Shown: in pieces, positions 17,906 to 20,300 of the stretch
How positions within the stretch are numbered: position 1 is the stretch's first letter
Layout of the letters: every line of letters begins with the position of its first letter
Assembly (NCBI RefSeq): GCF_026625745.1
Contig: NZ_CP113061.1
Coordinates: 2,629,501-2,693,500 of the forward strand
DNA from: Asticcacaulis sp. SL142
GTDB lineage: Bacteria; Pseudomonadota; Alphaproteobacteria; Caulobacterales; Caulobacteraceae
Direction: 5' to 3'
DNA length: 64,000 nucleotides
Made by a program: the position numbers and the translations under genes
Notes under the pieces: generated by a model
What the model was told of the DNA's origin: nothing
Database searches by the model: none
The model's input: only the letters and a program-made list of their open reading frames with translations

Positions 17906-20089
17906 TCACGCCACCCAGACGGTGTTATCGTCGGTATCTGCGGCATCATCCTGCGGTGCGGCTTCTGGTTTTATCGCTTCGATATCGTTCTGGTGGGGCA
18001 GGTGGATCGAGAAGGTCGCCCCTTCGGACGGCTCAGACTCTAAGGTGATCCAGCCACCGTGCAGTTCGGTCAGGGCCTTAACAAGCGCCAGCCCAAGCCC
18101 CGGCCCGCCGCGCTCTCGGCCGACATAGCGGTCAAATATATGGGCTTGTTTATCGTAAGGAATCCCGCGGCCTTTGTGGCTGACCTCAAGACGCAGGGTG
18201 TCGCCGTCGCGGTCGGTTTTGAGCACGATCGCCGTATCCGCCGCCGCATTGCGCTGGGCATTGTCGATCAGGTGATCCAGCATCTGCCCCAGCCGGCGCG
18301 GATCGACCCGGATCATGGTATCATCGCTCAGGCCCATATGCTCAAAGCGCAGATTGCGCGTGGCCAGCACACCATCCAGCCTCAGTGACAGATCATGCAG
18401 GATGGTGCCAAACGTCACGTCCGATAGGGAAATCTGCATTTCCCCGGCATCCATTTGCGCCATATCAAGTACGTCATCGATGGAGCGGGCCAGTTCACGA
18501 CCGGCGCTCTGGATGGCGGTCAGATAGTTTAGTTGTTTCTCGTTAAGGCCCGCTGACTGCGAAGTCATCAGTTCCGAATAGCCGACAATGGTGGTCATCG
18601 GCGTGCGCAGTTCATAGGACACATTGGCCACAAATTCGCGTTTCAGCCGCACCGATTCATTGAGCGCCATGTCGCGGTCTTCGATAGCCTGCTCAAGGTT
18701 ACGGGTGGCGGTAATGTCGGCAAAGGCCACCAGGGTCGCCCCATCCGGCAGAGGCTGGGCGCGCCAGCGCGCCAGCCGCCCGTCCGAAACGCGGACCTCG
18801 CCCATCTGCGGGGCGCGGGCGATCGGATCGGTATCGGTGACGCGCGCCTTAAGCTCGGCCCAGAAGCCCTTATCGTGAACCAGCGGCAGGCACAGTTCGG
18901 CCATGACGGCAAAATCCATCATGGTGACCATATCTTCAGCCGACAGGTTCCAGAAGGCATCAAAGGCGGCGTTGCGCAACCGCAACCGTCCATCCGACCC
19001 GAACACACTGACGGCATCGAGAAGCTGATCGAGCGTGGCACGCTGCACCTGAATCAGAGAATTGAACTGGGATTTGAGTTTCAGTTCGTCGGTTTTATCG
19101 ACATAAAGAGTAAGCAGTCCCCCCAGGGGATGCGGCTGACGCACGACCTTAAGGGATCGGCCGCCGGGCAGGCTCCACATCTCATCCGGGGCTATGTCCT
19201 TGAGACCATAAAACTCAAGCTCTTGCGCCTTCCACTTGGCATAGTCGCCCATCTCCGGCAGGCGGCGTTTCTGGCGCAGACGATCCAGCAACTCACCGTG
19301 GGTTGGACGTTCCGCCAGCCACGCCGGATCGAGATCCCACAGGGTCTCGAACGCCCGGTTATGGAAGGTCAGGCGCTTTTCAGGCCCAAAGATCGCCACG
19401 GCGTCTTCGAGACGGTCAAGGGTTTCATCGTGGGCCTTGGCGTGGCGTTTCAGCGCATCGCGGCTTTCCTCGGCCTCGGTGACATCCAGCGCGTAGGCGG
19501 CAAAATAGCCTTCGGACAGCGGCTCGACCGTGACGGCAAAGGCCCGTCTTTGGCCATCAAGGGTCAGCCAGCGGAAGCCTTCGCGGTGGCTGGCGGTGGC
19601 CACAGCTTCCTGCACCAGCGCGTCAGCCGAGCGATCTAGGCTAAGGTCGCGTTCGCGGGCGTCGGCAAGGCTTTCCGCTTCAACGGCTTTCAACCAGGCG
19701 CTATTGGCCCAGACCAGACGCCCGTCTTTGGAGACGATCCAGCACGGGGCGGGCAAATGCTCGGCCATCTGGGCGAACGGCCCCGACGACAGGGAGGTCT
19801 GCGCCCCGGCTATGGCTAGCCTGATCCAGGCGGTGGCACCCGACGGGCGGCCCTCGACAATCAGGGTCTTACCCGCCACGCCCACGGCCTTTTCGGCGAA
19901 TATTTCAAACCGACACGGCTTACCCGCCTCAATCAGGGCCTTGAGATCGGCTTCGGCCTGCGGGGAGCTTTGGCTCAAGGCCTCTAAGACCTGCGGTGCG
20001 CAGTCGGTAATATCACAATCACCATATGACACCCCCAGAGCCTCGGCGCAGGCTTTTAAGGTTTCATCCCCCCACACCAGCCGCACCAT
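17906..20089 (-). CDS. divL: DivL-type PAS/tyrosine-variant histidine kinase, main body
   Basis: This 727-aa frame carries the PAS and kinase body of DivL, the cell-cycle protein that in Caulobacter promotes CckA-CtrA signalling and responds to DivK. Three PAS-like modules lie at about 115-200, 215-320 and 340-440. In the dimerisation helix, FVANVSYELRTPM has Tyr492 (codon at 18614-18616) where kinases have His, the DivL hallmark. The ATPase domain is degenerate: the N box is HLIDNAQRNA and the G1 box is VSHKGRG, with no Asp. The N-terminal membrane anchor lies in a different frame (20118-20300); restoring one base would give about 797 aa, near the usual DivL size. Confidence 0.88.
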   Translation of the reverse strand: MVRLVWGDETLKACAEALGVSYGDCDITDCAPQVLEALSQSSPQAEADLKALIEAGKPCRFEIFAEKAVGVAGKTLIVEGRPSGATAWIRLAIAGAQTSLSSGPFAQMAEHLPAPCWIVSKDGRLVWANSAWLKAVEAESLADARERDLSLDRSADALVQEAVATASHREGFRWLTLDGQRRAFAVTVEPLSEGYFAAYALDVTEAEESRDALKRHAKAHDETLDRLEDAVAIFGPEKRLTFHNRAFETLWDLDPAWLAERPTHGELLDRLRQKRRLPEMGDYAKWKAQELEFYGLKDIAPDEMWSLPGGRSLKVVRQPHPLGGLLTLYVDKTDELKLKSQFNSLIQVQRATLDQLLDAVSVFGSDGRLRLRNAAFDAFWNLSAEDMVTMMDFAVMAELCLPLVHDKGFWAELKARVTDTDPIARAPQMGEVRVSDGRLARWRAQPLPDGATLVAFADITATRNLEQAIEDRDMALNESVRLKREFVANVSYELRTPMTTIVGYSELMTSQSAGLNEKQLNYLTAIQSAGRELARSIDDVLDMAQMDAGEMQISLSDVTFGTILHDLSLRLDGVLATRNLRFEHMGLSDDTMIRVDPRRLGQMLDHLIDNAQRNAAADTAIVLKTDRDGDTLRLEVSHKGRGIPYDKQAHIFDRYVGRERGGPGLGLALVKALTELHGGWITLESEPSEGATFSIHLPHQNDIEAIKPEAAPQDDAADTDDNTVWVA

Positions 20090-20117
20090 ATCATCTTCGA
20101 CTGCCAGAAACGCTTCA

Positions 20118-20300
20118 TCAAAGGCCGAGGTCGCGGCATCCAGTTCCCGACAGCATGGTCTGTTTCAGGCCAAGATCGGCTTTGAGCGCATCACGCTGCG
20201 CCCCCAGAGTGCCGCGCTGCCGCCACGACAAAAAGGTCGTCGACAAAGCCAGAGCGAGCGATCCCCCGGCAACGGCTAAGGCTATGGCGGATACGTCCAT
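20118..20300 (-). pseudogene. divL: N-terminal membrane anchor of divL, out of frame
   Basis: This frame encodes MDVSAIALAVAGGSLALA plus a second hydrophobic stretch and a coiled-coil start, then stops after 60 residues. That is the expected anchor of DivL. In the other frame, sequence just after the break reads ELDAATSAFDEAFLAVEDDM directly into the PAS body at 20089. Removing one G (from the CCC run at 20146-20148 on the plus strand) joins the two. A stop in the body frame just upstream rules out an in-frame extension. It is either a sequencing or assembly indel, a real mutation, or a recoding site. Confidence 0.7.

Follow-up and report, generated by a model that had tools for sequence, protein, structure and literature searches.

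The divL gene of this Asticcacaulis genome is printed in the assembly as two separate reading frames. Judged against its relatives, it is very probably intact in the cell, a single base inserted during sequencing or assembly having cut off the membrane anchor on paper. Such an error is likely because the relatives have divL whole and because other genes of this assembly are interrupted by one-base changes of a similar kind. One spurious base at a GGG on the minus strand would break the frame of an ordinary divL, and the cell would most likely produce a single membrane-anchored DivL of about 797 residues. A short transmembrane helix is predicted at the N-terminus of this protein, ahead of PAS domains and of a pseudokinase core with Tyr; by analogy with Caulobacter, the core would sense DivK~P in the CckA-CtrA pathway.

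Identity and layout of the split gene

The stretch of DNA analysed, referred to as the window, is 64 kb long; its features are collected in Table 1. An earlier note on this DNA, made from the letters alone, had named the gene DivL and had placed the membrane anchor and the kinase body in different frames. The difference in frame is confirmed, and the name is borne out by the domains, by the best structural match and by the motif at the phospho-acceptor site. The body ORF contains PAS_4 (residues 110-207), PAS_7 (353-466), HisKA (483-549) and HATPase_c (596-700), that is, the order of PAS, HisKA and HATPase_c expected of DivL. Its top match among solved structures was 4q20, "Sensor protein DivL", which we take to be the DivL of Caulobacter, with an E value of 1.4e-72, the runner-up having 8.9e-28. 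In the motif SYELRTP (body-ORF residues 491-497) Tyr replaces the phospho-acceptor His that ordinary kinases have at this position of HisKA, and YELRTP was shared by all 29 divL loci examined. On these features, the split gene is divL.

The DivL of Caulobacter binds DivK~P and controls CckA, acting in the DivK-CckA-CtrA pathway. It has been described as a pseudokinase bearing this Tyr (Y550), and a predicted transmembrane helix plus a coiled coil have been assigned to its residues 1-53 (PMC4211667). The gene studied here has in common with Caulobacter crescentus DivL the PAS domains, a HisKA domain with Tyr for His, the HATPase_c domain and, going by the same description (PMC4211667), a predicted transmembrane helix at the N-terminus. 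Unlike C. crescentus DivL, it has anchor and body in separate frames in this assembly.

As assembled, the predicted N-terminal helix, for which the 19-residue Kyte-Doolittle mean is 1.88, does not lie in the same protein as the DivL body. The ATG at 20089, with which the body ORF begins, is 28 bases past the stop codon of the anchor ORF. Upstream of this ATG the body frame runs on through ELDAATSAFDEAFLAVEDD and six further codons to a stop, and ATG, GTG and TTG were sought in the body frame between the two without any being found. The label DivL belongs to the gene and not to the frame as printed, the missing in-frame anchor being judged a fault of the assembly.

Table 1. Features of the divL locus and positions of one-base breaks elsewhere
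Feature	Sequence	Position	Strand	Remarks
Window	Contig of 3,706,221 bases	2629501-2693500		Part of one contig
Anchor ORF, 60 codons	Window	20118-20300	minus	N-terminal DivL membrane anchor; first 51 codons match relatives, final 9 codons out of frame
Hydrophobic stretch, anchor residues 6-24	Window	20229-20285	minus	Predicted transmembrane helix, from hydropathy only
Frame-change point, GGG (CCC on the plus strand)	Window	20146-20148	minus	One base more than in all four close relatives
19 start-less body-frame codons, ELDAATSAFDEAFLAVEDD	Window	20090-20146	minus	Protein-conserved in relatives
DivL body ORF, 727 aa	Window	17906-20089	minus	PAS domains, HisKA, HATPase_c
Tyr codon, body-ORF residue 492	Window	18614-18616	minus	In HisKA motif SYELRTP
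CTT TGA closing the anchor ORF	Window	20118-20123	minus	Resembles the prfB +1 shift site
Clean one-base insertions besides divL	This genome (G000:C1)	1891106, 1899596, 1909609, 2000099, 2121604, 2153608, 2274630, 2440643		
Private one-base indels at GANTC	G013:C1	890914, 987604, 1150597, 1216837		In conserved genes; last site by eye

A 249-aa ORF antisense to divL (window 19530-20279, plus strand) spans the break; it is probably a shadow of codon usage on the opposite strand.

Relatives carry anchor and body in one frame

A search for divL in 61 genomes, this one included, gave a match in all 61. Four of them are close relatives, G002, G004, G009 and G013, the first three being apparently A. 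endophyticus, UBA2476 and A. machinosus, and their proteins are 97-98% identical to ours across the full 727-residue body. Anchor and body are both genuine protein. Anchor residues 1-51 are 98-100% identical to single proteins of G013, G009 and G002, and the body, from residue 52 to the end, is 97-98% identical to the same single proteins. The earlier suggestion that the two frames belong to a single protein of about 797 aa holds. In all four close relatives the divL frame is open over 798-802 codons, with anchor and body in the same frame. The CCC on the plus strand at which the frames had been proposed to join is confirmed as the joining point, since all four relatives have one base fewer there, GG being found in three and AG in G009. 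Two bases in relatives where this genome has three was also the outcome that the earlier note had tied to a sequencing error.

The nearest relatives are other species, with 89-90% DNA identity across about 390 bases, which counts somewhat against reading the extra base as an error. Of 24 other genomes of the genus, all but G022 show the body in a single open frame, whose length from stop to stop is 798-863 codons. Within the window, comparisons with single relatives gave 4, 3 and 5 splits, and divL was the only split common to the comparisons with G013, G009 and G002. On these comparisons, the split is far beyond chance, yet of the assemblies seen only this one has it. The N-terminus was read at 29 divL loci (L003-L031) drawn from the 60 other genomes. 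Because at all 29 the frame starts 70 residues or more before the aligned body, with a hydrophobic stretch near the N-terminus in every case (19-residue means 1.21-2.45), homologues do not naturally begin at the PAS body, a possibility that would have removed the anomaly.

A codon-by-codon comparison with the four relatives shows recent selection on both sides of the break. Over the 51 codons of the anchor there were 3-12 synonymous differences and 0-1 non-synonymous ones. In the 19 codons that separate the break from ATG 20089, each relative differed by 4-7 synonymous changes and by no non-synonymous change, and thus the body frame upstream of ATG 20089 was in use until very recently. By this measure, selection has acted on the 19 start-less codons as protein up to the very recent past, or acts on them even now, in agreement with the earlier remark that they are protein-like and have no start.

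Other one-base breaks in the same assembly

A single contiguous part of this genome, 863.5 kb or about 23% of the whole, was set against the collinear 860 kb in G002, the queries being ORFs of at least 100 aa. Fifteen of the 620 conserved ORFs (222,217 aa) were split in this genome. Splits were called clean if both parts were at least 30 aa long, at least 85% identical and adjacent, which held for 10 of the 15. Nine of these ten were one-base insertions, and the tenth was a two-base insertion close to an ORF start. Under even odds of insertion and deletion, nine insertions out of nine have a two-sided p of 0.004. In the reverse direction, with G002 as the target, 12 of 623 ORFs were split, one of them cleanly. 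Since G013 agrees with G002 at this single clean split, G002 does not appear to be damaged there.

The nine genes with clean one-base insertions, whose families were scanned on the intact G002 copies, are divL, yidC, ubiE and those for an S9 peptidase, a DUF885 protein, a DUF6445 protein, a weakly GH19-like protein, a family 2 glycosyltransferase and a 2Fe-2S subunit. In this genome yidC has no second match in its family, and ubiE alone exceeds the cut-off of its own family. As the break in yidC falls just beyond the conserved domain and that in ubiE just ahead of the core, neither is proven lethal and lethality is not claimed. The five splits outside the limits for clean ones (2203400, 2253325, 2419292, 2540967 and 2682952) were left out of the count of nine. 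Two of them run against the insertion-only pattern, with deletions of one base at 2203400 and of two bases at 2419292, and at 2682952 the sequence of G013 agrees with this genome, G002 being the odd one.

The break in divL is therefore private and accompanied by similar indels elsewhere in the assembly, as expected of an assembly indel. We infer from sequence comparison that this particular base of the GGG is an error, although GGG is a short run and not a classical error-prone homopolymer. Like indel errors of long-read assemblies, the breaks are private one-base indels that interrupt conserved genes where an assembly has few contigs. A pattern of insertions only is not typical of either Nanopore or PacBio, because Nanopore homopolymer errors are described as often being deletions and because, in one PacBio assembly described in the same source, deletions were the sole differences outside a misassembled region (PMC11649196).

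Less likely readings: a real frameshift or recoding

If the extra base were real and recent, the cell would produce a soluble DivL of at most 727 aa from ATG 20089, together with a free anchor peptide. The body frame is open from this ATG and holds the pseudokinase core and all PAS domains detected; moreover, residues 1-53 were missing from the Caulobacter DivL constructs described for in vitro work, and binding of DivK~P by DivL was seen in vitro (PMC4211667). However, ATG 20089 is unlike a conserved start, as the frame is at least 70 residues longer at 29 of 29 loci and the aligned part starts no earlier than residue 2 in many genomes, and the 19 codons upstream of it are selected as protein. 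The eight further clean one-base insertions among the 620 conserved ORFs of the same assembly also speak against a real frameshift, as does the essentiality of divL reported for C. crescentus; the same paper deduces essentiality for Sinorhizobium meliloti as well (PMC11500502). We consider a real and recent base unlikely. That it is moreover fixed in the natural strain and did not arise during culture, with the tether lost very recently and DivL either soluble or rescued by low-level slippage at CTT TGA, seems quite improbable. If the base were real, the strain would show, as an experiment of nature, whether the DivL pseudokinase works untethered or needs its anchor.

Alternatively, the base could be real and the ribosome could return to the frame through +1 recoding, one candidate site being the CTT TGA that ends the anchor ORF, from which a +1 shift leads into the body frame. 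The organism itself has such a sequence in the prfB region (L184:1497-1512; G000:C1:428131-429150), where AGGAGG CGT CTT TGA C places AGGAGG three bases before CTT and a 370-aa ORF (L184, 1450-2562) crosses the site in the post-shift frame; this is presumably the known programmed +1 frameshift element. The divL anchor ORF likewise closes its zero frame with CTT TGA. Unlike prfB, divL has no Shine-Dalgarno-like element ahead of CTT TGA, as judged by inspection, and the close relatives, with the frame intact in four of four, need no shift. Furthermore, CTT TGA is common, since it precedes 150 of 5475 comparable stops of the frame entered by an insertion, a count over 463.5 kb that took in ORFs of 300 aa or more, antisense ones among them. 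The missing Shine-Dalgarno element, the intact relatives and this background led us to reject programmed +1 frameshifting at CTT TGA, and recoding of a real base must be regarded as highly improbable. The consequence drawn earlier, that the regulator would lose its membrane tether or need recoding, is unsupported in view of the other one-base insertions and of the lack of a good sign of recoding.

GANTC sites and breaks in other assemblies

GANTC has been named as a motif of cell-cycle methylation in many Alphaproteobacteria (PMC12710330), and errors near GANTC have been reported in Nanopore assemblies (PMC12710330, PMC12392509), one of these reports describing methylated motifs as mostly causing no error (PMC12392509). 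GANTC was found within 8 bases of the gap at none of the 10 clean sites in this assembly, and a methylation-linked Nanopore error at GANTC was rejected on this count as the cause of the divL break. Because none of the clean breaks is at GANTC, the breaks in this assembly, if errors, would be of another kind; they differ from GANTC-linked Nanopore errors in being insertions and in lying away from the motif.

The genome G013 is, we infer, that of ZE23SCel15, which was assembled from Nanopore reads with no further correction (PMC10586169). GANTC was present at three of the five distinct clean break sites in G013, which were drawn from 6 splits with G002 as the query and 9 splits with this genome (G000) as the query, and a random 17-mer of G013 would contain the motif with a probability of about 0.014. 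The two clean sites lacking the motif, 1014636 and 1324222, are close to ORF starts and may be non-coding.

Some Asticcacaulis assemblies of one or few contigs have one-base breaks in core genes, and without the reads such assemblies are no safe ground for claiming gene loss or recoding. The divL gene itself is broken in two Asticcacaulis assemblies, this one and G022. In G022 (L027 near 1499) the frame is broken by one extra base at GAATC, a GANTC site, near body residue 523, as judged against a relative that is 94.6% identical.
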